Positions 3,710 through 62,911 of a stretch of 64,000 nt of DNA are shown here, piece by piece. Source of the DNA: Synechococcus sp. KORDI-52 (lineage in GTDB: Bacteria > Cyanobacteriota > Cyanobacteriia > PCC-6307 > Cyanobiaceae). The position numbers and the translations under genes were made by a program. A model generated the notes under the pieces. It did no database searches. It had not been told where the DNA came from and saw only the letters and a program-made list of their open reading frames with translations. The stretch's first letter is position 1, and the number at the start of each line of letters is the position of its first letter. Location of the stretch: contig NZ_CP006271.1 in NCBI RefSeq assembly GCF_000737595.1, positions 310,001 through 374,000 on the forward strand. The letters are read 5' to 3'.

Positions 3710-5134
<1,425 letters not shown>

Positions 5135-5155
5135 AGAATCAACAGCAGGTCATCT

Positions 5156-5878
5156 GTGATCATCAACCACTCGAAGAAATTCATATTTTTTGCCAACCGG
5201 AAAACGGCTTCAACATCAACAGCAATTGCGCTGTCGAGCAGCTGCAATCGAAAAGATGTCATTACACCTTTAGGTCGGGACGAAAAAATTCGAAGACAAC
5301 TTGGCTACCAGGGGCCCACAAATTACATCCCCTGGTGGAACAAAGTTAATTATTTTGCGATCAAAGCAAAATGCAAGTTACAAAAGAAAGGACTTAGCCC
5401 ATATCTTAAATCGATAGGACTGCACACACACATCGAAGCAACAACTGCTCTAAAAAAGAATTACATCGACGCATCAATGTTCGAGAGCTATTATAGCTTC
5501 TGTTTTATTCGAAACCCATGGGACCATGCCATTTCCAAATTTTTTGAACTCAAAAAAGACGAGAAATTGCAATCCCTCGACCTGGACACATTTATCGAGA
5601 GCGGTATGCTGGACAAATTCGCAAGGTCATGCCGATTAATCTACAGCGATCAAGGCGAAATTATCGTAAAACGCTTATATCGCTACGAGAATCTCCAGGA
5701 AGCAGTTGAAAGCATTTTCAACGATCTCAAGTTGACCGGAAACCCACAATTGCCAAGAGCCAAATCCAACTTAAGAACCGACAAAAGGCCCTACAGAGAC
5801 TTGCTAAATACCAATCAAAAAAATAAAATCGAACGCATCTTTGAACAAGAAATTGAATGGGGAGAATATCAATTTTGA
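5156..5878 (+). CDS. Sulfotransferase family protein, AT-rich and probably acquired
   Basis: This is a 240-residue soluble protein. The segment FFANRKTASTSTAIALSSS (about residues 11-29) resembles the 5'-phosphosulfate loop of PAPS-dependent sulfotransferases. FCFIRNPWDHAISKFFEL (about 120-137) matches their 3'-phosphate strand and helix, including the Arg-Asn-Pro-Trp pattern. The acceptor cannot be predicted; cell-surface glycans are the common target of this bacterial group. The start is GTG at 5156, as no upstream ATG is in frame. Base composition is clearly lower in GC than icd and glcF on either side, with many AAA and AAT codons, so I infer a horizontal insertion. About 120 bp after it are AT-rich and hold no gene I can see. 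Confidence 0.75.
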   Translation: MIINHSKKFIFFANRKTASTSTAIALSSSCNRKDVITPLGRDEKIRRQLGYQGPTNYIPWWNKVNYFAIKAKCKLQKKGLSPYLKSIGLHTHIEATTALKKNYIDASMFESYYSFCFIRNPWDHAISKFFELKKDEKLQSLDLDTFIESGMLDKFARSCRLIYSDQGEIIVKRLYRYENLQEAVESIFNDLKLTGNPQLPRAKSNLRTDKRPYRDLLNTNQKNKIERIFEQEIEWGEYQF

Positions 5879-11937: not shown

Positions 11938-13317
11938 TCAGGAGGCACCAGCCAGAGGATCGGCTGCCAATTCCTCAGGCACTTGATCACCATCCTCAGG
12001 CGGCTTGCCCTTCAACACCAAGCGCAGCAACACCGGTGCCAGGAACGTGGTGCCGATCACCATCAGCAGAATCGCCGCTTCGAGCCCAGGGGTGAGCAAA
12101 CCGGAGGCGGTGCCCAGGCCCAGGAAAATCAGGCCGACCTCGCCGCGGGGCATCATTCCCAGACCAACAACCAGGTTGTTGGTCTTCTCCTTGCTGAAGA
12201 TGGCCCAGCCGGCTGCCACCTTGCCGATGATCGCCACCACCAAGAGGAAAGCAGCCACCACCAGGGCGGAACTGGCCCCGGGGTCAGAGGGATTGATCAC
12301 TGAGAGGTCCATGCCAGCACCCACCAGCACAAAGAAGACGGTGGCAAACAGATCAACGATGGGGGTGACCGACGCCTGAATCTCATGACGGTGTTTTGAG
12401 GTGCTGGCGATCAAGCCGGCGGCGAAGGCACCGAGGGCGGCTTCAAGTCCGATGGCAGACGCCACAAAACAGCTGGCTGCGAGCAAAAGATAAGAACCGA
12501 TCAGTTTGGCTCCGGGGGCCTTGAGCTGATCAATCACCCAGTCGAAGGCAGGGGCCGCCTTCTGGCTCAGCAACAGGGCCACCACCACAAACAGCACCGC
12601 TGCTGCCACCAGCTGAACGATGGGGCCGACCTCGAGGCTGCCGCCGGCCGCCAGGGAGACCACGATGGCCAGGATGACGATGCCGAGGATGTCGTCGAGC
12701 ACAGCGGCACCGATCACGATCTGGCCCTCACGGGTGCGCAGATAACCCAGCTCACTGAACACGCTGGCGGTGATCCCGATGCTGGTGGCCGTCATCGAGG
12801 CGCCGGCGAAGATCGCGGGGATCGCATCCACATGGAAGATCGCCATCAGACCAAAGGTGCCGAGGGCGAAGGGCAGCACCACACCCACCACAGCAACGCT
12901 GAAGGCCTGAGCTCCCACCGCCATCAGTTCCTCCAGTTCACTTTCGAGACCAACGGAGAAGAGCAGGGAGTAAAGCCCCAGCGTGGCCACCGACTGCAGG
13001 GCGCCGAAACTCTCGTTGTAAAGCTCTGGGATTTCGTCCACCGGCACGTGAGAGAGGCTGGCGACCACCTCTGAAAACGCTCCTGAGAGCTGCACATGGG
13101 TTTCCGGCGGCACCAGAAGATGCAGACCGGAGGCCCCGATCAGCACCCCCGCCAGCAGTTCACCAAGGATCGTGGGCAACTCGAAGCGCACCAGCACCTC
13201 GGCAAGGGAGCGGGCCGCCACGAAGATCAGCATGAAGCGGAGGACGCCGATCAGCGTTTCCGCCAATTCGAAGTCGTGGCTGCTGATTTCGCTCAGCAGG
13301 GTGGGCAACAGCATCAA
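11938..13317 (-). CDS. Monovalent cation/proton antiporter, CPA2 family (NapA/KefB-like)
   Basis: This is a 459-residue integral membrane protein of the Na+(K+)/H+ exchanger family, with about 12-13 helices. Typical stretches are LPTILGELLAGVLIGASGL near the N-terminus, FSVGLESELEEL, and the ion-binding IGAAVLDDILGIVILAI with the paired Asp-Asp. FAAGLIAST and GMMPRGEVGLIFLGLG are also characteristic. There is no cytoplasmic TrkA-N (KTN) domain, so it resembles cyanobacterial NhaS/NapA proteins more than KefB/C. Its role would be Na+ extrusion and pH control in seawater. It starts about 210 bp from the divergent phosphoketolase operon; that gap has no gene. Confidence 0.92.
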   Translation of the reverse strand: MMLLPTLLSEISSHDFELAETLIGVLRFMLIFVAARSLAEVLVRFELPTILGELLAGVLIGASGLHLLVPPETHVQLSGAFSEVVASLSHVPVDEIPELYNESFGALQSVATLGLYSLLFSVGLESELEELMAVGAQAFSVAVVGVVLPFALGTFGLMAIFHVDAIPAIFAGASMTATSIGITASVFSELGYLRTREGQIVIGAAVLDDILGIVILAIVVSLAAGGSLEVGPIVQLVAAAVLFVVVALLLSQKAAPAFDWVIDQLKAPGAKLIGSYLLLAASCFVASAIGLEAALGAFAAGLIASTSKHRHEIQASVTPIVDLFATVFFVLVGAGMDLSVINPSDPGASSALVVAAFLLVVAIIGKVAAGWAIFSKEKTNNLVVGLGMMPRGEVGLIFLGLGTASGLLTPGLEAAILLMVIGTTFLAPVLLRLVLKGKPPEDGDQVPEELAADPLAGAS

Positions 13318-52051: not shown

Positions 52052-53194
52052 CTAAGGGTGGGCAGAGCTGTCCAACCTGCCAAGCAGCGCCTCAATGATT
52101 CGTGCATTGGCCGCTGGGAAGGCGTAATTGACCAGGTCTTCCGGCAACACCCAACGCACCTGCTGACTGGCGAGAGGCTGCGGCTCCCCCGACACCCAGT
52201 CGCAGAGATGCACGACGAAGCGCAGCTTCTTGTGGCTGTAGGCGTGATCCACCGTGATCAGTTCATCGCCGACCGTCACGGCGATACCGAGTTCTTCCTG
52301 CAGCTCACGGACAATGCAGGTGTTGATCGTTTCGCCTTCTTCCTGTTTGCCACCGGGAAATTCCCACATCCCCCCGAGCAGGCCTTCCTCGAGCCGCTGA
52401 TCGATCAACACCTCCCCTGCAGCATTGAGCACAACGCCCACTCCAATCACCTGGAAGGGCAAGGGTTTGGCAGCGTCGGTCACGGGCCAGGGGCGGGGAT
52501 CGCCGGAAGCGTAAGCAGCACAGCGCAACCGCCAGGGGCAACGTTCGCAGGAGGGAGAGCGTGGCGTGCAGAGCGTGGCCCCCAGATCCATCAAGGCCTG
52601 GTTCATATCCCGGGGCCGCACCGGATCCAGCAACGCCTCACTCCAGCTCCAGAACAGCGCGTCATCGCGAGCCGGCGGGCGCGGATGGGCCGTCAATCGC
52701 GCCAACACCCGTTTGACGTTGCCATCCAGGATGGGCAGCGGTTCATTGAAGGCACTGGAAAGAATGCTGCCGGCGGTGGTGCGGCCAATGCCCGGCAAGG
52801 CCATCCAGCCCTCAAGGTCTCGGGGCCAGGGTCGGCCCACCAACATTGACGCCGCCTCATGCAGACGGCGAGCACGGGCGTAGTAACCGAGGCCCTGCCA
52901 CTGCAGCCGCACCTCATCCAGAGACGCCGAGGCCAGGGCCTCCACCGTGGGAAACGTCGCCATCCAATGCGTCCAGTAGGGGAGAGCCACGGCCAACTGG
53001 GTCTGCTGGAGCATCACCTCAGCGATCCAGATGCCGTAGGGGTCGAGCTGTTGATCCGCTTCCGGCCATGCCCCGCACGCCAGAAACATCCAAGGCTTTT
53101 GCAGGGGATCCCGCCGACCATGGACCTGCCACCAAAGGATCAGGTGTTCGGCCAACGAATCAAAGCTTTCAGATCCCGAACATGGACTGATCAA
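52052..53194 (-). CDS. mutY: A/G-specific adenine DNA glycosylase
   Basis: MutY removes adenine mispaired with 8-oxoguanine. The 380 residues include WIAEVMLQQTQLAVALPYW, the helix-hairpin-helix LPGIGRTTAGSILSSAFN, LDGNVKRVLARL with the catalytic Asp, the 4Fe-4S loop C-x6-C-x2-C-x5-C (CTPRSPSCERCPWRLRC), and a C-terminal MutT-like domain. That domain carries an intact-looking Nudix box GGKQEEGETINTCIVRELQE followed by ELGI. Most MutY proteins have lost Nudix catalytic residues, so this is notable. No upstream start is needed beyond ATG 53194. Confidence 0.95.
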   Translation of the reverse strand: MISPCSGSESFDSLAEHLILWWQVHGRRDPLQKPWMFLACGAWPEADQQLDPYGIWIAEVMLQQTQLAVALPYWTHWMATFPTVEALASASLDEVRLQWQGLGYYARARRLHEAASMLVGRPWPRDLEGWMALPGIGRTTAGSILSSAFNEPLPILDGNVKRVLARLTAHPRPPARDDALFWSWSEALLDPVRPRDMNQALMDLGATLCTPRSPSCERCPWRLRCAAYASGDPRPWPVTDAAKPLPFQVIGVGVVLNAAGEVLIDQRLEEGLLGGMWEFPGGKQEEGETINTCIVRELQEELGIAVTVGDELITVDHAYSHKKLRFVVHLCDWVSGEPQPLASQQVRWVLPEDLVNYAFPAANARIIEALLGRLDSSAHP

Positions 53195-53216
53195 AGGACT
53201 TTCAACACTTCAGGAC

Positions 53217-53868
53217 TTAGTCGTAGACGACAACCAGACCTGCAGAGGGTGGCTGCATCAAGGCCTTGATCTCAGGTTTTACGGACATCTTGAACTGCTT
53301 CCACTGGAGGCTGCCGATGATCTGTAGCGCTGCAGCTTCGGCCAGACGCTGACCTGCTTCCACATCACTTGGATAGTGCATCCCGCAGGTCACACGGGCG
53401 GCCATCCCCTGACGGCCCACCTGCAACAAACGCTGTCTGCGTTCCGGCAACAAATCAGCAAGCAGCAAGCAGCAAGCAGCAAACTTGTCGTGACATACCA
53501 AGTGGAGTGGCCACTGGGGTAACTCTCGGAGTATTCCCGGGGCAAACAAGGCGTCAGATCTCGATGGGAAAGAAATGGTCTAGGGCGCCCGATTGCGTTT
53601 TTGAGCTTGTTTTTTACTTCATCGACCAGATGAACAAACTGCGGAACACCCGAGCGAATCATGACTGTTGCCAGCGCAAAACATCCAGATCACGCTTCAG
53701 CGCCTGACTGCCCCGCGCCGATGGTGACCCAACCACATTGGCCAAAGAAGAGAAATCCATTTGAAAGCCATCGTCCGGATTAGCCGCCACAGGCTGGATG
53801 AATGCTGTCGAGCCGAAAACAAAAACACTTCAAGCGCCGACCATGCCACTAAGGCCACGAAGCGCCAT
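53217..53868 (-). pseudogene. Broken PAP2-superfamily acid phosphatase gene
   Basis: Reading the minus strand, pieces of one class A-type acid phosphatase appear in order but in different frames. From ATG 53868: MALRGLSGMVGA, an in-frame TGA (53830-53832), then SVFVFGSTAFIQPVAANPDD (signal peptide end) and GSPSARGSQALKRDLDVLRWQQS, then TGA (53659-53661). In the next frame: LKNAIGRPRPFLSHRDL and SYPSGHSTWYVTTSLLL (motifs 1 and 2). After a heptamer repeat expansion the third frame gives ADLLPERRQRLL and ARVTCGMHYPSDVEAG (motif 3). About 30 residues before GVPQFV also seem lost. With four lesions it is surely inactive. The intact ancestor would be a periplasmic phosphomonoesterase. Confidence 0.85.
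53455..53482. repeat. Four-copy 7-bp tandem repeat inside the PAP2 pseudogene
   Basis: On the plus strand the units are tcagcaa, gcagcaa, gcagcaa and gcagcaa. Removing two units (14 bp) restores a reading frame that aligns position by position with the phosphatase family (STWYVTTSLLLADLLPERR), so the expansion itself explains this frameshift. Confidence 0.9.
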
Positions 53869-54077
53869 CAGTGCAAGGCTCCAATAGCAGCCATATTAAT
53901 GCAAGTCTCACGTCATTCAATCAACCCTTTTTGACATTAAAAATCTGCAATCAGCCGCCAGAAGAAACAAAAAACACTTGTCGCAACTGAGCAGCCCCAA
54001 TGGTTTTTAAGTGTTTGAAATGCTCCGGGGCAACGTCTAACGCTGATGGGGAAGCGTCTGAGACTCTGCACTGGGCT
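53869..54077. other. Intergenic stretch without a recognisable gene
   Basis: These 209 AT-rich bases lie between the pseudogene start and the methyltransferase stop. I see no frame, RNA or terminator that I can support. Confidence 0.6.
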
Positions 54078-54785
54078 TCAAGGACGAACAGGCCGAAGCA
54101 GGGCCAGGGCTTCTGCCCGATGCTGACCGCGCCAAGCCCATGTCATCGTCCAGCCGCAGTCGGCAGCGACCGACTCGATCCAGCCACGCCGTGCCGGCCA
54201 GTCACATCGCTTCAGGTGATCGATCACAGCATCCCGCTGCTCGCCGGACAGACCGGGCCACTGCTGCACCCTGGCGACATAACGCTTGAGATAGTCGTCC
54301 CGCGATTCATCTTCCTCCTGAAACACATCCGTCCACACCAGCAGCCCGTCGTCAGCAACGCGCCGACGCGCCCCCTCAAGGAAACGACCCTTATCGGAAT
54401 CGCTGAGGTGGTGAATGGCGAAGGCGGAGTGAATCAAATCCACCGGTTGCTCAGATTGCGCCACGGCCCAATCGAGCAGATCCCCACACCTCCAGTGGCA
54501 GGGGAACCGGGCCGCCCCCATCTGGCGCTCGGCCAGGGGCAGAACAGAGGCCGCCAGATCAATCCCTGTGTAGGAGCGCAAAGGCAACGAGCGGAACAGG
54601 GGCGCGAGATGGGCGAGATCACCACAACCCAGATCCACCAGAGCGACGGATGTCCGCCAGTCCCCGCGTTGATCGCACCAGTCCCTGAGTGCAACAGCGG
54701 TCGCGTCGGCAACAGCGCGGTGCTCCATCACATCGTGGTTCAGAACCTTCCGGAAGGTTTGCCATTGCTGTTCGAACAAGGTCAT
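54078..54785 (-). CDS. SAM-dependent methyltransferase
   Basis: This is a 235-residue class I methyltransferase. The SAM-binding motif VALVDLGCGDLAHLAPLFRSL lies near residue 48, followed by YTGIDLAASVLPLAERQM, DLIHSAFAIHHLSD and VADDGLLVWTDVF. The substrate is unknown. The ATG at 54785 overlaps the upstream gltS stop by 4 bases, which fixes this start and excludes the much longer frame. Coupling with a glutamate symporter is unusual and does not suggest an obvious substrate. Confidence 0.87.
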   Translation of the reverse strand: MTLFEQQWQTFRKVLNHDVMEHRAVADATAVALRDWCDQRGDWRTSVALVDLGCGDLAHLAPLFRSLPLRSYTGIDLAASVLPLAERQMGAARFPCHWRCGDLLDWAVAQSEQPVDLIHSAFAIHHLSDSDKGRFLEGARRRVADDGLLVWTDVFQEEDESRDDYLKRYVARVQQWPGLSGEQRDAVIDHLKRCDWPARRGWIESVAADCGWTMTWAWRGQHRAEALALLRPVRP

Positions 54786-56164
54786 CGTGCCCGGCCCAGA
54801 CGCAGGCCGAACACCAGGGAGGCCAGGGTGAGCGCCAGAGCGACAGCGCTGAAGCGCGGCAATCCCCAGCTGGCGATCAACACAGGCGAGAGGGCGGTGA
54901 CCAATCCACCGCCCAGGAAGGGTTCGAACAACAGCTGCTTGAACGAAAAGGCTTCCATGGCCCGACTCCGTCCCAGGGGGTCGGCCATGCGCAGCAGCAG
55001 CAGGCCAGTGGCCGTCACCCCGGTTCCCTGGCCGAAGTCCGCGATCCCTCGCTCGAACCAGTGATCGCGGAAAATCCGCGGAGCCAGCACGAGAAAAGCA
55101 GCGATATTCCAGGTGAGACCAACAACTGCGAGGGCGACAAAGGGAAGCCAGTTCTCCTCCAGAAGCGGCAGATTGAGACTGGCCATCGCCGCCGTGATCA
55201 GCAGATCCATGGCCACAGAGCCGAGGCTCGCCTGAGCCAGCGGCGAAGCCAGACCGGTTTGCCCGGTGCGCTGCAGCACAACCTGCACGATCAACCCGCC
55301 GACCATGGCCAGGGGGAACACGGGAATCGCAAGGATGAGATTGGCGGTCTCGGGACCTCCAAACCAACCGGCGAGGCCCGTGAGCAAGGCCTTCAGCAGG
55401 ATGCCCAGGCCGACAGCGCCGCCGGCGAGCGCCACATTCAGCGTGAGGGCATCGATCGTCATCGACCGTGGAGCGTCTGGATCAACCGTTCCCGCAGCAC
55501 GCTCCAGATTGAGTCGCTCCTCAGCAGACATCGGATCTACGGTGTCAAGCGCCTGTTGCGACCTGTTCACGCGCGCCAGCCATTGGCGGGCGCGGCCGAT
55601 TACCACCAGGGTGCTGCCGAGCAGAACAGCAGTCAGAACACCCACCGTCGCCATGGCCAGACCGAGGGTCTCACCAGCGGGGAAACCCAGCTCGCGGAAG
55701 GTCGGGCCCAGACCGGCCGCAGTGCCATGGCCCCCTTCAAAGCCCACCTCGATCAGGGCCGCCATCAAGGGGCTGGTGCCAAACAGCGGCTGAAGCACCA
55801 GAAGCACCAGAAGCCCCCCCACCAGGTACTGCCCGAAACCGAGCACCATCCCGAACGCGGTCTGTCCGGCCGCACGATTCCAGATCACCCCTGGGCTCGG
55901 CAGCCTCTGGCCGAGAAACAAGGTTGCGAACACCAGGGAGATCAAGACGCCAGGGGCCTGGCTCCAGATGCGATACACCTGCTCGGGGAACACACTCCAG
56001 GGTCCGAAAGGACCGATCAGCAGACCAAGCAGACCGGCAATCAACGCCTCAGGGATGCCGAGGCGCCTAAGCCAGCCCAGATGTTGACGCAGCGCTGTGC
56101 CCACCAGGAGCAGTAGACAGAGCCCCGAAAAAGACAGCAGAACATCGAACAGACTGAGGTTCAT
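54782..56164 (-). CDS. gltS: Sodium/glutamate symporter
   Basis: This 460-residue membrane protein of the ESS family has about 11 helices in two inverted halves. Recognisable parts are LGIPEALIAGLLGLLIGP, the first reentrant-loop motif VGFEGGHGTAAGLGPTFRELG, and the second half GFGQYLVGGLL and IADFGQGTGVTATGLLLLRM. A long cytosolic linker lies around residues 200-245. It would import glutamate with Na+. Upstream the sequence turns abruptly AT-rich (from 56165), marking the edge of the decay zone. Confidence 0.9.
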   Translation of the reverse strand: MNLSLFDVLLSFSGLCLLLLVGTALRQHLGWLRRLGIPEALIAGLLGLLIGPFGPWSVFPEQVYRIWSQAPGVLISLVFATLFLGQRLPSPGVIWNRAAGQTAFGMVLGFGQYLVGGLLVLLVLQPLFGTSPLMAALIEVGFEGGHGTAAGLGPTFRELGFPAGETLGLAMATVGVLTAVLLGSTLVVIGRARQWLARVNRSQQALDTVDPMSAEERLNLERAAGTVDPDAPRSMTIDALTLNVALAGGAVGLGILLKALLTGLAGWFGGPETANLILAIPVFPLAMVGGLIVQVVLQRTGQTGLASPLAQASLGSVAMDLLITAAMASLNLPLLEENWLPFVALAVVGLTWNIAAFLVLAPRIFRDHWFERGIADFGQGTGVTATGLLLLRMADPLGRSRAMEAFSFKQLLFEPFLGGGLVTALSPVLIASWGLPRFSAVALALTLASLVFGLRLGRAR

Positions 56165-56444
56165 CAGATCTCAACCCATGCAGGCAGGGTGCCACCGCTC
56201 GCCTCAGGCTGATGACTTTGGCATGTGAGCGGTCATGCCAGCCAGGCCGCCACTGCCACGCTGAGATGGATCAATTAACATATAGCCATATAAAATGCCT
56301 TTCTCATCGCCGCTGATGGCAAGGAGCTGAAAAAGAGAAGAAAGAAGCAAAGAAATTCAAATAGAGAGGGCACTATAAGGCAAATGCTTTTTGCCATACT
56401 TTCAGTCAATATGTAACACATTAACTGGTAAAATGAAAGGGCTT
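56165..56444. other. AT-rich intergenic stretch before the EAL remnant
   Basis: About 280 bases upstream of gltS and of the EAL-like remnant. It probably holds the gltS promoter. I find no supported gene; the 90-codon minus-strand frame across 56275-56547 looks like chance because it is antisense to the EAL remnant. Confidence 0.5.
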
Positions 56445-57117
56445 GAATGTTTATCCAGACTTGAAGAGGACTCAACTTTGCTAGAACCCAGGTATTTTTA
56501 CCTTTAATTAAATCATTACAAATCACTGCTGATTTTGATATAATCATACGCGAAAAAGTGATCGCTTAAATAGGCATTATTCACGCAAAGTCGCCCCACA
56601 CAAAATTGACATTCAATGTAAATGTCTCAGGCGATCTTATTCGAAGCCCTGATAAACGTGAAATTTTACTTGAACTGATTGCCTCCGCCTCCACCTAACA
56701 AAAAACTACAAATTGAAATTGTTGAAGACTCATTTGAAATAGAGGCTCATGTATGGATGTTTTTTCACATGCCTTGAATTGTTGAATATTAAAGTATATA
56801 TCGATGACTTTGGCTTAGGCTTTGCATCAATCGACCGTATATTATCTCTTCCGATTTATGGGGTAAAAATTAGATGGCATTTTTGTTTCTGGGCTAGATG
56901 AGCGCGACCAGAAAAAAATAATTTCCTAGGTTCCATCGTCAAAGCTCTTACCAGTTCAGACTTAGAAGTTGTTACTGAAAGCATAGAAAATCAAGATCAG
57001 ATTGAGTGGATTAAAAGTTTAGGTGTTTAAAAATACCAAGGCTATGCAATTTCGAAGCCAATCTCTTTACAGGATACGCTTGCATTCATCATGGCAAACG
57101 AAATCAAACCAGAAGCG
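56445..57117 (+). pseudogene. Degenerate EAL-domain (cyclic-di-GMP phosphodiesterase-like) gene
   Basis: Translating the three plus frames and joining pieces recovers an EAL domain in order. The pieces are ECLSRLEEDSTLLEPRYFYL (56445, the EAL-motif position), IKSLQITADFDIIIREKVIA, HAKSPHTKLTFNVNVSGDLI (the NVS motif), LQIEIVEDSFEIEAHV (the E-x-x-E motif), VYIDDFGLGFASIDRIL with LPIYGVKI (the DDFG motif), DGIFVSGLDERDQK, and SDLEVVTESIENQDQIEWI with YQGYAISKPISLQDTLAF (the E-S-I-E and QGY motifs). At least four frameshifts and four stops separate them. The gene is certainly dead. The upstream GGDEF or sensor part, if there was one, is not visible. The strong AT bias contrasts with the rest of the window. 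Confidence 0.85.
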
Positions 57118-57774
57118 ATTATTGGTCGGAATAAATCCAGCAGAATGATCAATTCTTTAAGCTTTAGAAGTTTTCTGACAAAAACCCTTTATAAAATACC
57201 TTTTTACAGATCGTCGAGCTAAAACTAATATTAATCATTGGCGCTGATCAGCATCAAGAACACCTAAAATGATCAACGGCAAGTCACGTTATTTCCAGAA
57301 TAAAGCAACGAATAATTGTTTGAGCATCACAATCATACAACTTGCATCCACGAACCATTACAAATCAACAACTAAGGCATCGAGCCAATGAAACCTTTAT
57401 ACGTTATTCTTGAAGATGGTATTTTTGAATAGTTCTACCATTGTATTGCTATTACTAGCAAGAGAAAGCTATAAATTCAATTTCAAAGGCTGATCAATGC
57501 GCGAGCTCTCAGTGTCATAGACTGAAAACTTGCACTGCAACCACGCAATTATACATCTAATAGCCACCTACTCATCTAAAATAACATTCAAAATATAAAC
57601 TAGAGAGGAAAACCGACTTCACAACAATTGGCGAGGGTGACTCTGGGCTCGGCGGACAATTCTAATGAAGAAAATACGATTACATGATGAGCCAAGAAGC
57701 TCATCAGATTCAAAGACTAACAGTTGAGCTGAAGCTTGTCATAGCGAGTTCACGATGAATGAGCTCTGCAAACG
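57118..57774. other. AT-rich stretch of about 650 bases with no intact gene
   Basis: This region continues the AT-rich tract after the EAL remnant. Short open pieces such as ELKLILIIGADQHQEHLK (near 57220) look faintly coding, but they are interrupted at once and I cannot assign them. It may be further decay of the same or a neighbouring signalling gene, and it includes the upstream region of the zinc-finger gene. Confidence 0.5.
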
Positions 57775-58200
57775 ATGGACTGTCCGGCCTACCACTCAAA
57801 ACTCGATGAGGTAGATGTGTGCGGCCTGAGGGTTGACTTGTGCCAATACGGATGCGGGGGTATTTGGTTCGAACGTTTCGAGCTCAATCAAACCAACACA
57901 ATCCACGCCCATACAATTCAGAATTTATTCAAAGCATCAACGGCAAAACATGATCAAAAGATCATGACCAGTCAAAGACGGTGTCCAAGAGATTCAACCA
58001 TCATGCAACAGCATTACTACAGCATTAAAAAAGAGGTCGAGGTTGATACATGTCCTTGCTGCGCTGGCATCTGGCTCGATCGCCACGAATTAAACAAAAT
58101 TCAGCAGCAGTATGAAAATGCTCGCGAGAGGGACGCAGAAGCGAACCTATTTATCGAGAAAGCATTTGACAAGATTCTTGCCACCCGATCAATCCCCTAA
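57775..58200 (+). CDS. Double zf-TFIIB-type zinc-finger protein
   Basis: This is a 141-residue protein with two copies of the zf-TFIIB motif (CPxC ... CxxCxGIWxDxxEL). Copy 1 is MDCPAYHSKLDEVDVCGL then CQYGCGGIWFERFEL; its second Cys is a Tyr (CPAY), so zinc binding may be lost. Copy 2 is RCPRDSTIMQQHYY then CPCCAGIWLDRHEL; here the usual second Cys is Asp (CPRD). A helical tail follows (QQQYENARERDAEANLF). It is intact but AT-rich like the decayed DNA around it. ATG 57775 is at the motif start, as in the family. Function unknown. Confidence 0.75.
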   Translation: MDCPAYHSKLDEVDVCGLRVDLCQYGCGGIWFERFELNQTNTIHAHTIQNLFKASTAKHDQKIMTSQRRCPRDSTIMQQHYYSIKKEVEVDTCPCCAGIWLDRHELNKIQQQYENARERDAEANLFIEKAFDKILATRSIP

Positions 58201-58500
58201 TACCCTCCGATTCTCACGACACTCCATTTGAAAGCTCATAACCCATGATCAAGACCATCAATTCGAGGGTCTTCGTTGTCAATATGTCCTTCCAGTCTCC
58301 CTGATCAAGCGAACATTCAAGCCATCCCACCCTGACGACAACAACTCTCTCCACCAGGAAATTGCATTGAAACATGAACTCAAGCTTGAAATCCGATTGC
58401 CCCGATCGAATCTCAAGATCCCTACAGAAGCACTCAACAAGACAGACAGAGGCTTGCAGAAGCCATATCCTGCGCGCATTACAAGGTTCAAGAGTCAGGA
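58201..58500. other. Upstream region of the efflux genes, no gene seen
   Basis: Three hundred bases bridge the AT-rich zone and the RND efflux genes. No supported frame or RNA was found. The efflux promoter should be here, but I see no convincing operator. Confidence 0.5.
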
Positions 58501-59643
58501 ATGCGCCGAGCTCATCAGCTCCTGGGCCAGATGCTGGTTGCAAGCACGTTGCTTGGAGGCATCTCGGGCTGCCTGTCGAAACCACCCCAAAAAACATTTC
58601 TTTCGATCCAGACGAGCCGGATCAAAACAGCGACGTTCTCTCCCGTCATCGAAGCGATCAGCCCGCTGGAATCCACCAGCAATGTGGCGGTGAAGCCCCA
58701 GGTGGCTGGCACCGTGGTGCAGATCCTGGCCACCGCTGGCCAACCGGTGAAAGCCGGCCAGGTGATCCTCGTGCTCGACAACGTTCAACAGAGCGCCGCC
58801 CTGGATGCGGCCCGCAGCGAAGCTCGGAAGGACATCCTCAACGCTGAACGCTACGACTATCTCTACAAGCAAGGAGCCGTCTCAGCCAAGGAACGCGATC
58901 GATACGCCACTATGGCCGAGCAGGCCAAGGATGATGTCCGCACCGATGCTGCGGATCTGGGCTACAAATTCGTGCGCGCACCCATTGACGGCGTCATCGG
59001 TGATCTGGATTCCGTGAAGCTTGGGGACTACGTCAAAGTCGGCCAGCAGATCACTGGCATCGTCGACAACTCGACGCTCTGGACCTTGATGGAGATCCCA
59101 GCCTCCGAGGCCTCAGCGGTCAAAGTAGGCCAAACGGTGAAGCTGGTGTCGCAATCAACACCACCGGTGAGCGGTGAAGGCAAGGTCACCTTCGTGTCGC
59201 CTTACTACGGCATCACCGGCAGCAGCAACGCTCCCAACACCTTGATGGTGAAAGCGGAGTTCCCCAACCTCACCGGGAAGCTCAAAACCGGCCAGTTTGT
59301 GGCCTCCGAAATCATCACAGGCAACCAGTCCCATCTCGCGGTGCCAGTGCAGGCCGTGATGATGCAGGCCCAGCAACCCTTCGTCTACAAGGTTGTTCCT
59401 CTCAACAAAGTCTTACCAAAGATCAAGGCTTCTCCGAACGCCTCCCCGAAAACAGTGAGCGAGCTGGAACGGTTACCGGCGGACACCCCGGTTGTGGTGC
59501 AGACCAAGGTGCAGCTGGGCGATCTTCAGAACAATGCCTACCCCGTGAAATCTGGGCTGAAAGCTGGTGATCAGGTGGCGATCAGCAACACCAGCCGCCT
59601 GCGCAGCGGGATGCCAGTGCATGTGAAGACCGGAGCGAACTGA
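58501..59643 (+). CDS. RND efflux periplasmic adaptor (membrane fusion) lipoprotein
   Basis: The 380-residue HlyD/AcrA-type adaptor has a lipoprotein signal ending in the lipobox ISGC (Cys24). The lipoyl half-motifs are ISPLESTSNVAVKPQVAGTVVQIL and then KFVRAPIDGVIGDLDSVKLGDYV, with a helical hairpin between. A beta-barrel follows (TVKLVSQSTPPVSGEGKVTFV in part) and a C-terminal membrane-proximal domain with VKSGLKAGDQVAISN. It links the inner-membrane pump encoded 4 bp downstream to an outer-membrane channel that is not encoded here. ATG 58501 is probable; ATG 58531 would shorten the signal. Confidence 0.93.
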   Translation: MRRAHQLLGQMLVASTLLGGISGCLSKPPQKTFLSIQTSRIKTATFSPVIEAISPLESTSNVAVKPQVAGTVVQILATAGQPVKAGQVILVLDNVQQSAALDAARSEARKDILNAERYDYLYKQGAVSAKERDRYATMAEQAKDDVRTDAADLGYKFVRAPIDGVIGDLDSVKLGDYVKVGQQITGIVDNSTLWTLMEIPASEASAVKVGQTVKLVSQSTPPVSGEGKVTFVSPYYGITGSSNAPNTLMVKAEFPNLTGKLKTGQFVASEIITGNQSHLAVPVQAVMMQAQQPFVYKVVPLNKVLPKIKASPNASPKTVSELERLPADTPVVVQTKVQLGDLQNNAYPVKSGLKAGDQVAISNTSRLRSGMPVHVKTGAN

Positions 59644-59647
59644 AGCG

Positions 59648-62600
59648 ATGTCTTTCTCCGACAACTTCATCAAGAAGCCTGTTCTCACCACGGTTTGCAG
59701 CATCCTGATCGTGCTGATTGGGGTCATTGCGATCCCCACCCTGCCGATTGCCAACCTGCCCAACATCGCCAATCCTCTGATCCAGGTGAGCGCGGTGTAC
59801 AGCGGTGCCAATGCAGAGGTAACCGAGCAGGCGGTGACCAACCCGATCGAAGCACAGATCAACGGAGTGCCCGGGGTGGCCTACATCGCCTCCACGAGCG
59901 ACATGACAGGCAACAGCACGATCAATGTCTACTTCGATCAAACGACCGACATCGACATCGATCAGGTAAACGTGCAAAACCGGGTCACCCTGGCGTCGCC
60001 GCAGCTGCCGGAGCAGGTGTCAAAAAGCGGTGTTTCGGTGAAACAAAGCAACCCTTCGATCCTGTTGGCCTACGAGATCAGTTCATCGGAGGGCCAGTAC
60101 GACGCGGCTTACCTGAACGGCCTGATCTACGAACAGCTCTATTACCCTCTGTCGCGCGTCGAAGGCGTGGCCACAGTGGGGGTGCTTGGCGGAGCCAACC
60201 CAGCCTTCTGGCTGTTTGTCGATCCCGACAAACTCGCCGCCAACAAGATCACTGCTGAAGACGTGATCACCGCGGTGAACGCTCAGAACAGCGTGGCGGT
60301 GGGGGGCCTGGTGGGAGGGCCTCCGGCCTCTGGGGATCAGGCCTACACCTACCCGATCGTTGTAGAGAACAACGGCAACCTCATCTCCCTGGAGGACTTC
60401 AACAACCTGATCCTCAACCGCTCACCCTCGGGCAACCTGCTCAAACTCGAGGATGTGGGCGAAGTTCGCTACGGAACACAAAGCTTCTCCGTTCAGGGCA
60501 TCGACAAAAACGGCCATGAGGCCCTGACTGTTGTGGTGTACCAGACACCCGCCAGCAATGCCCTGGATGTGTCCAAGGCTGTGGTGGAGCAACTCGACCA
60601 GTTCCGCAGTCTCGTCCCGCCCGGGGTGACGGTGAATCAGATCTATGACGTCGGCCAGTTCATCAAGTCTTCGGTGGATGGGGTAATTGATGCCCTCGGC
60701 CTGGCGATCGTGCTGGTGCTCGTGATCCTGTTTCTGTTCCTGCAGAACTGGCGGGCCACCGTGGTGCCCAGTCTGGCCATTCCGATCTCCCTGATCGGCA
60801 CCTTTGCTTTCCTCAAGCTGTTCGGCTTCTCGATCAATCAACTCACGCTGCTGGGGTTGGTGCTGGCCACGGGTCTGGTGGTGGACGACGCCATTGTGGT
60901 GATCGAGGCGGTGTCGACCAACATCGAACAGGGGATGAAACCCCGCGAGGCCGCCCTGGCCTGCATGGGGGAGCTGTTTGGTGCGCTGATCGCGACAGCA
61001 CTCGTGTTGATGGCGGTGTTCGTTCCAGTGGCCTTTTACCCCGGCGGCATCGGGATCATCTACAAGCAGTTCGCCCTGACGATCGCTTTTTCGATCGCCA
61101 TCTCGGCCTTCAACGCCCTCACGTTTTCGCCGATGTTGTCGGGTTTGATCCTGCCTCGGGAGAAACCGCCCGAGCCGCGTGGAAGCTCCTGGATCGTTGT
61201 GGGTGTGATCGTGGGCCTGGCCTTCGGACGCTTCAGTGCTGCCGCCTTTGGCAGCTGGACCTACCTGGCCGGTGTGGGCATCGGCGCCGTGGCCGGAGCC
61301 AACCTGCCCAAAATCTTTGCGGCATTCAATGCCGGTTTTGATCGCCTGCAGCGGGCCTACGCCGCGCTGCTCACCCGGGTGATCGCCCTGCGCCAGCTGA
61401 TTCTCGGCGGATTGGCCCTTGGCATCGTGATGACCATTTTCGCCTTCACAACTCTGCCCAGCGCCTTCATCCCTGATGAAGACCAGGGCTACGGACTCGG
61501 CTTCTTCCAACTCCAAAACGGCGCCTCCCTGGTGGAAACGAAGCGGCTCGGCATGAAGATCGCCGAGGTGCTGAGCGAGGAAGACGACGTGGTCAACGCC
61601 GGGATCATCAACGGCTACGGCTTCAATGGTTCCAGCCCTGACCAGGGCATCTTCTTCTTCGGGTTCAAGCCCCTGGAGGAACGCAAAGGCGCCGGCCAGA
61701 GCTCCGACGCGATCATCAAGCGGCTCAACACCAAGCTGATCGAACTGAGCGATGGCCTGGCAAGAGCATCAGGCCCACCAGCAGTGCCTGGTTTCTCCCC
61801 TCAGGGTGGGTTCTACTTCCAGTTCAACGACCTCAGCAACGGCCAATACAGCCTCAATGAACTGTCAGATCTGGCAAATCAACTCATCCAAGAGGGGAAT
61901 GCCAGCGGCGACTTTTCCACGCTTTACACCCAATTCAATCCCAGCTCCCCCGCCGTTGGTCTGTCGATCAACCGCGACGTGATGGGCGCACTCAACGTCG
62001 ACTATCAGGAGGCCATGAACAGCATCGCTGCCCTCACGGGCAGCAACTACACCGGGCTCACCTATGAGAACGGTCAAGTGCGCCAGATCTACGTGCAGGG
62101 CACACCGGATCAACGCCAGAGCATCGACGACGTGCTGGGTTACTACGTTCAAGATCGCGACGGCGGGCTGGTGCAGGTGTCGCAGTTCGCCGACGCCGAG
62201 CTGAGCAGCGCTCCGCCGGTGATCAGCCATTACAACCTCAACCGCACCGTGCAGATCCAGGGCGCGGAAGCGATCGGCAAGAGCAGCGGTCAAGCCCTGG
62301 CCAAGATTCAGGCGCTGTTCACAGCTGCCGACTTCACCAACATCGGCTCGGCTTTCACCGGGCTCGCCGCTTTGCAGTTGTCTGCCGGCAACGCCAGCGT
62401 GCTGGTGTTCGGCCTTGGCGTGTTGATCGTTTACCTGGTGCTCTCCGCCCAGTACGAGAGCTATGTCACGCCCGTGATCATCCTGGCCACGGTGCCGCTG
62501 GCCATGCTGGGTGCCCTGGCCTTCCTGGCCCTGCGCTCGATCGATCTGAACATCTATGCCCAGGTGGGCCTGGTGACCCTGATCGGACTGGCGGCCAAGA

Positions 62601-62911
62601 ACGGCATCTTGATCGTGGAGGTGGCGGAACAGAAACTCGAGCAGGGTCTGAGCATCACCGAGGCGGTGGTGAAGTCCGCCGAATCCCGGCTGCGGCCGAT
62701 CCTGATGACCGCCATCGCCGCCTTGGCGGGCTTCCTCCCTTTGGTGGTCGCCAATGGTGCCGGTGCCCACAGTCAGCAGTCGCTGGGCACCGTGATCTTC
62801 GGTGGCCTGGTGGTGGCCACGGTGTTGTCCCTCGGGGTGGTGCCACCGGTGTACGTGCTGGTGAAAAACCTCGAAAACCGTCTGTTCTCTCGCCAGGATG
62901 TACCGGCGTAG
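59648..62911 (+). CDS. RND-family multidrug efflux pump (AcrB-like)
   Basis: The 1087-residue inner-membrane drug/proton antiporter starts MSFSDNFIKKPVLTTVCSILIVLIG, a typical HAE1 opening. Proton-relay residues are kept: Asp413-Asp414 in LVVDDAIVVIEAV and Lys984 in GLAAKNGILIVEVAEQ. Other signs are GIGIIYKQFALTIAFSIAISAFNALTFSPML-type helices and DEDQGYGLGFFQLQNGASL. It is about 40 residues longer than AcrB because of an extra hydrophobic stretch (about 511-557, IVVGVIVGLAFG...SWTYLAGVGIGAVAGA) between the two halves. It forms a unit with the adaptor gene; no TolC gene is near. Confidence 0.94.
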   Translation: MSFSDNFIKKPVLTTVCSILIVLIGVIAIPTLPIANLPNIANPLIQVSAVYSGANAEVTEQAVTNPIEAQINGVPGVAYIASTSDMTGNSTINVYFDQTTDIDIDQVNVQNRVTLASPQLPEQVSKSGVSVKQSNPSILLAYEISSSEGQYDAAYLNGLIYEQLYYPLSRVEGVATVGVLGGANPAFWLFVDPDKLAANKITAEDVITAVNAQNSVAVGGLVGGPPASGDQAYTYPIVVENNGNLISLEDFNNLILNRSPSGNLLKLEDVGEVRYGTQSFSVQGIDKNGHEALTVVVYQTPASNALDVSKAVVEQLDQFRSLVPPGVTVNQIYDVGQFIKSSVDGVIDALGLAIVLVLVILFLFLQNWRATVVPSLAIPISLIGTFAFLKLFGFSINQLTLLGLVLATGLVVDDAIVVIEAVSTNIEQGMKPREAALACMGELFGALIATALVLMAVFVPVAFYPGGIGIIYKQFALTIAFSIAISAFNALTFSPMLSGLILPREKPPEPRGSSWIVVGVIVGLAFGRFSAAAFGSWTYLAGVGIGAVAGANLPKIFAAFNAGFDRLQRAYAALLTRVIALRQLILGGLALGIVMTIFAFTTLPSAFIPDEDQGYGLGFFQLQNGASLVETKRLGMKIAEVLSEEDDVVNAGIINGYGFNGSSPDQGIFFFGFKPLEERKGAGQSSDAIIKRLNTKLIELSDGLARASGPPAVPGFSPQGGFYFQFNDLSNGQYSLNELSDLANQLIQEGNASGDFSTLYTQFNPSSPAVGLSINRDVMGALNVDYQEAMNSIAALTGSNYTGLTYENGQVRQIYVQGTPDQRQSIDDVLGYYVQDRDGGLVQVSQFADAELSSAPPVISHYNLNRTVQIQGAEAIGKSSGQALAKIQALFTAADFTNIGSAFTGLAALQLSAGNASVLVFGLGVLIVYLVLSAQYESYVTPVIILATVPLAMLGALAFLALRSIDLNIYAQVGLVTLIGLAAKNGILIVEVAEQKLEQGLSITEAVVKSAESRLRPILMTAIAALAGFLPLVVANGAGAHSQQSLGTVIFGGLVVATVLSLGVVPPVYVLVKNLENRLFSRQDVPA

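Follow-up and report, generated by a model that had tools for sequence, protein, structure and literature searches.

Between a sodium/glutamate-symporter-like gene and an efflux operon of Synechococcus sp. KORDI-52 lies a short AT-rich stretch in which motifs of an EAL (c-di-GMP phosphodiesterase) domain appear in order but across several reading frames. We asked whether this stretch is the remnant of a c-di-GMP signalling gene and, if so, how such a gene came to stand, and to break, in a genus whose other sampled genomes show no c-di-GMP enzymes.

A degraded EAL domain in an AT-rich island

The window, i.e., the whole 64-kb stretch of DNA that was analyzed, has a GC content of 62%. Its lowest five 500-bp windows (taken in 250-bp steps) all fall inside a single island, at 36.6% GC compared with a median of 63% for windows of that size. 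A second dip in GC content, down to 41%, is seen at positions 5001-5750. The island was divided as follows:

56270-57774, no strand: AT-rich island, 36.6% GC
56334-57090, + strand: ruin of an EAL domain (PF00563, frameshift-aware alignments, clade placement)
57091-57774, no strand: remainder of the island, without recognizable gene (Pfam)

The first-pass annotation, made from the sequence letters, had drawn the island from 56165 to 57774; it is AT-rich from 56270 onward, while the first ~100 bp, beside the symporter-like gene, have 63.8% GC.

The EAL part of the ruin spans 757 bp on the + strand. With stops read through, its second half (56773-57060) matched PF00563 with an E-value of 2.5e-18 and 66.7 bits (cut-off 31.3), and its first half (56358-56735) with 3.7e-6 and 27.1 bits, below the same cut-off; the ruin covers the domain almost end to end. 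In frameshift-aware local alignments with 38 ORFs, the best-scoring intact homologue reached 199, with 68 of 250 positions identical, compared with 28-38 for 12 shuffles and 34 for the reverse strand. Alignment to a profile of 37 EAL domains scored 218, compared with a maximum of 42.7 (mean 30.1, sd 3.9) in 40 shuffles preserving single-base composition only, and 38.7 for the reverse strand. The signature residues of EAL domains are ExL, N, E, DD, K, E and Q, and each of the seven can be read at its aligned place in the read-through. These results confirm 56334-57090 as a degraded EAL domain with homology beyond chance. They bear out the first-pass annotation, which had described an EAL gene in ruins within a foreign-looking AT-rich patch and had named failure of an EAL profile with joined frames as grounds for withdrawing that view.

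The best path through the 37-domain profile makes 5 frame changes and passes 3 stops in ~250 codons, and a laxer penalty raises the frame changes to 7 with the same 3 stops; the single-frame PF00563 pieces hold 2 and 8 stops. The first-pass annotation had given at least four frameshifts and four stops, and a length of 670 bp. Like EAL phosphodiesterases, the ruin has near-full domain length and readable signatures; unlike them, it cannot be produced as one chain. As it does not form one open reading frame, it is a former, not a working, member of the family, and most likely makes no enzyme now. Given that the residues at the signature positions can still be read, we infer that its intact ancestor hydrolyzed c-di-GMP.

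Regions adjoining the domain yielded little. The first 378 residues of L095, one relative, were used as a query for an upstream GAF/GGDEF part, and none was found in 53195-58500 (a score of 35 on one strand and 36 on the other, with 33-37 in six shuffles). A possible C-terminal tail at 57091-57219 was compared four times with the ruin's clade; shuffles scored equally high in 2, 22, 39 and 65 per 100, leaving three of the four tests without significance, and the tail was discarded as additional evidence. Eight conceptual pieces of the remainder (57091-57774) gave no Pfam family at E<=1.

The ruin is a family-type signaling gene

The read-through matched 92 of 400 family genomes (its own included) at E<=1e-10. 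The best other match within the family reached 157 bits and 35% identity, and the best outside it, in a phylum-wide draw of 386 genomes, 108 bits and 29%. Its best intact relatives in the family are 29-35% identical (30-35% for L094-L103). A whole-bacteria scan gave, among the matches listed, 80 loci with 22-32% identity and a best E-value of 4e-27, less alike than the family copies; beyond these, closer relatives may exist. In a tree of 80 EAL domains from the same genome, the family, other cyanobacteria and other bacteria, the bootstrap of which had not fully settled, the ruin and 20 family EAL domains fell on one side of a branch with support of 100/99.6. An earlier tree, built more quickly from 96 rows, supported at 97 a grouping that also included L007, a long-branch gene of this genome. 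The two trees drew 80 and 96 of 125 rows, half of the bacterial rows having been left out before the 125.

Since the family copies are both its closest matches among those listed and its clade partners, the ruin is assigned to a family-type signaling gene. Nor is the gene exotic: the clade, as sampled, belongs entirely to the same family, and 85 of 300 family genomes have an EAL match. The exact position of the ruin inside the clade is unsure, because it shares only ~35% identity with its nearest relative and its branch is very long (2.47 in the 80-row tree).

Pfam analysis of 8 of the 20 clade members identified seven GAF-GGDEF-EAL proteins and one GGDEF-EAL protein; two of the 20 rows derive from short ORFs of 323 and 434 aa. 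The ruin carries an ED motif that is invariant across 13 rows, while the other EAL domains compared mostly have ET or ES instead, and clade member L205 also has ET. The ruin thus shares a clade and the ED motif with what we group here as Cyanobiaceae-like GAF-GGDEF-EAL proteins (L095-L097, L100-L103 and relatives). It differs from them in that no GAF or GGDEF part was found in the insert and in its AT-rich setting, the clade members having 52-73% GC; none of them qualifies as an AT-rich donor.

Three other sources were considered and rejected. A recent duplicate from within the genome should have a second DNA copy, of which none was found; at the protein level, the genome's eight other EAL ORFs are 24-31% identical to the ruin over the aligned stretches, and single-frame pieces of the ruin reach up to 44% over 34 residues. 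A search of 58 other genomes was also negative at E<=0.001. Phage carriage was set aside as the ruin had no DNA match among phages and low protein matches, and plasmid carriage because of equally low protein similarity: no match to the 4010 plasmid or the 55 phage records reached 60% identity, those listed being 24-33%.

A composite insert in a variable slot

The island is part of a 5.3-kb insert between a mutY-like gene and a HlyD/RND efflux operon, with the following features:

52052-53194, - strand: mutY-like gene (named by eye), left flank (amino acid identity to relatives)
53195-58500, no strand: composite insert in a variable slot (flank comparison with relatives)
53217-53662, - strand: PAP2-type phosphatase, broken, in two overlapping frames (PF01569)
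54078-54790, - strand: methyltransferase-like gene (named by eye), adjoining the symporter-like gene (recurrence with it)
54782-56164, - strand: sodium/glutamate-symporter-like gene (PF03616, 7.8e-12)
57775-58200, + strand: intact 141-aa ORF with two TFIIB-type zinc-ribbon stretches (PF13453, 1.4e-17)
58501-62911, + strand: HlyD and RND efflux genes, right flank (PF16576, PF00873)

The mutY-like protein has 82-83% amino acid identity in G005 and G009 and 73% in G021; HlyD has 85-88% in G028, G009 and G005; and the RND gene is 86.5-87.4% identical to those of the same three genomes and 77.6% to that of G021, which indicates that the present genome is not the outermost of the five. The slot between the flanks is nearly empty in G005, where the mutY-like match ends at 12620 and the HlyD match starts at 12766 of L085, ~0.1 kb apart. 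The gap is ~9.7 kb in G009 (L084) and ~4.2 kb in G021 (L086). Blastn of the insert against the slot DNA of these two genomes gave no match, and neither the ruin nor the symporter or zinc-ribbon proteins were detected there at E<=1e-3. The insert therefore behaves as a genomic island, being absent from the matching site in relatives, which hold almost nothing (G005) or other DNA (G009, G021). In G028, the ~11 kb extracted from the corresponding side of HlyD contained no mutY-like match.

A 48-residue stretch adjoining HlyD in G009 (L084 5647-5781) resembles the beginning of the mutY-like gene (52%), the whole gene standing at the opposite end of that slot; this stretch is possibly a footprint of DNA entry.

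The content of the insert is heterogeneous. The symporter-like gene, divergent from the ruin, has 64% GC and a third-position GC of 0.75. It is found in 1 of 34 genus genomes, this one, at E<=1e-20, and a relative of some kind occurs in 209 of 300 family genomes at E<=1e-40; its 13 best other family matches, from two other genera, are 79-83% identical. Of 14 symporter loci inspected, four (L229-L232) also have the adjoining methyltransferase-like gene, at 57-60% identity. An intact EAL copy next to a symporter was also sought, and the flanks (<=1.5 kb) of the 14 loci in other genomes gave no EAL match. The PAP2-type phosphatase is the second broken gene of the insert, with PF01569 matched in two frames, in one above the cut-off (7.3e-7) and in the other below it (1.5e-4), and the zinc-ribbon ORF between the ruin and the efflux operon is of intermediate composition (46% GC). 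The presence in one insert of a GC-rich symporter pair, an AT-rich ruin, a broken PAP2 gene and an intact zinc-ribbon ORF indicates a patchwork, in which the ruin may have arrived separately from the symporter pair. A tRNA scan of the slot and of ten slot and island loci was negative, and 56150-56350 and 57550-58550 have no identical words of 10-20 bases in common, in either direct or inverted orientation.

A c-di-GMP gene set private to one genome of the sampled genus

Searches with stops read through (E<=1e-3) detected an EAL domain (Pfam) in 1 of 34 genus genomes and GGDEF likewise in 1 of 34, both being the present genome. Of the 34, 19 (this one included) are >=90% complete and <=5% contaminated, and 15 of the other 33 are not. 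Within the sampled genus, c-di-GMP genes are thus confined to this genome, in agreement, habitat aside, with the earlier remark that few open-ocean picocyanobacteria have them. That reading did not take in the many apparently intact c-di-GMP genes that the same genome holds. No title among the papers listed on c-di-GMP in Synechococcus, picocyanobacteria or Cyanobium describes this set, although it may already have been published, and a word search of PMC7522525 returned no c-di-GMP terms.

Seven long EAL ORFs are present (five GGDEF-EAL, one CHASE4-EAL and one EAL alone), together with two further GGDEF proteins, giving seven complete GGDEF domains in all. Damaged members are the ruin, a 129-aa half EAL ORF (2.007 Mb) and a GGDEF gene split over two frames (2.039 Mb). 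Apart from the 0.37-Mb site in the window, the set occupies positions near 0.60, 0.72-0.73, 1.38, 2.01 and 2.03-2.06 Mb. Together with a polysaccharide locus described below, it has 36-46% GC, compared with 62% for the window; the EAL/GGDEF genes measured have 36.5-46.3% GC and third-position GC of 0.34-0.45, and the mutY-like, HlyD and RND genes third-position GC of 0.74-0.80. Loci noted outside the window are:

L088 8260-11633 and L090 4150-7445: pairs of a phosphonate-binding-type gene and a GGDEF-EAL gene, EAL domains 50% alike
L088 12722-13633 (G000 ~2.039 Mb): GGDEF split over two frames, 53% GC, an exception to the AT-rich set
L091 7479-13708 (G000 ~2.007-2.014 Mb): NfrB/NfrA-like polysaccharide locus, with the half EAL ORF

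Two GGDEF-EAL genes are preceded by the phosphonate-binding-type genes and one GGDEF gene by an NMT1-like gene; the two pairs could possibly encode ligand-controlled c-di-GMP enzymes. In a further AT-rich run (L087 6274-16642), DyP-peroxidase-like and P450-like genes lie between two GGDEF-EAL genes.

Three genes stand in a row beside the half EAL ORF. One encodes a glycosyltransferase with an MshEN domain (25.5 bits against a cut-off of 23.1), and the other two encode a TPR-bearing NfrA_C protein and a protein of the DUF4434 type. The NfrB-like synthase was found in 7 of 300 family genomes, a draw that took in at least 20 other genus members; the other six copies lie outside the genus, in three other genera, and are 61-64% identical to the present one, with 58-68% GC compared with 41% here. 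The three-gene row was conserved in both of the two genomes examined among the six. According to PMC8669469, the E. coli counterpart, NfrB, binds c-di-GMP and synthesizes a polysaccharide that is secreted. The present locus resembles E. coli NfrA/NfrB in having an MshEN glycosyltransferase in line with the NfrA_C protein and one more gene; it differs in that this third gene is of the DUF4434 type, and it lies far from the window.

The apparently intact genes would constitute a live c-di-GMP set, of which the ruin would be a dead member.

Origin and decay of the EAL gene

We propose, with considerable confidence, that the ruin is a dead EAL gene of the family-specific type, which stood in the slot as part of a composite insert and was truncated and then decayed. 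The original gene would have been the C-terminal EAL domain of a c-di-GMP signaling protein, whose relatives mostly have a sensor (GAF)-GGDEF-EAL architecture. In this scheme, a lineage within a genus lacking c-di-GMP enzymes would have gained family-type c-di-GMP genes at several sites from one or more AT-rich sources, one of them entering the mutY-like/efflux slot within the composite insert. The gene would next have lost its upstream part, which makes up over half the protein in relatives, frame changes and stops gathering after the truncation. With surplus phosphodiesterases present, one more may have been dispensable, and redundancy may account for the loss.

This scheme fits the role of marine Synechococcus islands, which PMC2441476 describes as reservoirs where transferred genes are either retained or, more or less quickly, lost again. 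The slot shares with those islands its variable contents, atypical GC and decaying genes, and differs in that no tRNA was found there.

The first-pass annotation had left the choice between a past import and a remnant of an ancestral gene. In the latter case, the genus ancestor would have had c-di-GMP genes, most of which this lineage retained, the present one now being lost, while its sampled congeners lost theirs. The clade of the ruin belongs to the same family, and two of the genome's own EAL genes (L003 and L004) group with family protein L047 with support of 97 in the 96-row tree, both of which are compatible with descent. PMC4284465 explains the absence of c-di-GMP genes in oceanic picocyanobacteria by possible loss in stable habitats, which PMC7063779 also favors, noting nutrient-rich waters as the origin of the Synechococcus strains with such domains. 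Against this, retention would require many losses, as 33 congeners (15 of them poorer genomes) lack EAL and GGDEF even with stops read through, and the present genome is not outermost at the RND gene. The slot is nearly empty in a close relative. Moreover, long-resident genes would be expected to have become host-like in composition, which the c-di-GMP genes are not, and the foreign-looking composition of the intact genes cannot be explained by decay. We therefore regard an ancestral remnant as rather unlikely. The near-empty slot, the 33 congeners without a match and the AT-rich intact companions together make import likely rather than selective retention, although not proven: the comparison with relatives covered a single slot, the search turned up no AT-rich donor, and the split GGDEF has 53% GC.

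An error of sequencing or assembly in an intact gene is very improbable. AT-rich stretches are sometimes harder to sequence, but the genome is a single contig rated 99.97% complete, at other sites of the assembly the AT-rich c-di-GMP genes mostly have uninterrupted frames of 500-800 codons, and an error would leave the missing upstream part unexplained. That a working product is still made, by programmed frameshifting or recoding or from a split gene, is scarcely credible, given that ~250 codons contain five frame changes and three stops and that the insert shows no sensor or GGDEF trace, even though the signature residues are readable on the joined path.

A broader version of the import scheme would have the whole c-di-GMP pathway (sensors, cyclases and phosphodiesterases, together with a polysaccharide synthase under c-di-GMP control) regained laterally in several AT-rich pieces, with an unsampled AT-rich relative in the family as the source and the surplus now being pruned. 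The ruin, the half EAL ORF at 2.007 Mb and the split GGDEF at 2.039 Mb would then be examples of this pruning. We give this version about an even chance.

Implications

A pseudogene in an island is ordinary and carries little weight alone; the interesting part is the private c-di-GMP set with a plausible output. One sampled species has a whole c-di-GMP set, together with a polysaccharide synthase as its plausible output, in a genus otherwise without such genes. If the proposed history is true, it would offer a natural gain-of-signaling comparison, with 33 sampled sister species without the genes (18 of them good genomes) and one with them, and the partly decayed remainder would show which c-di-GMP parts are dispensable.
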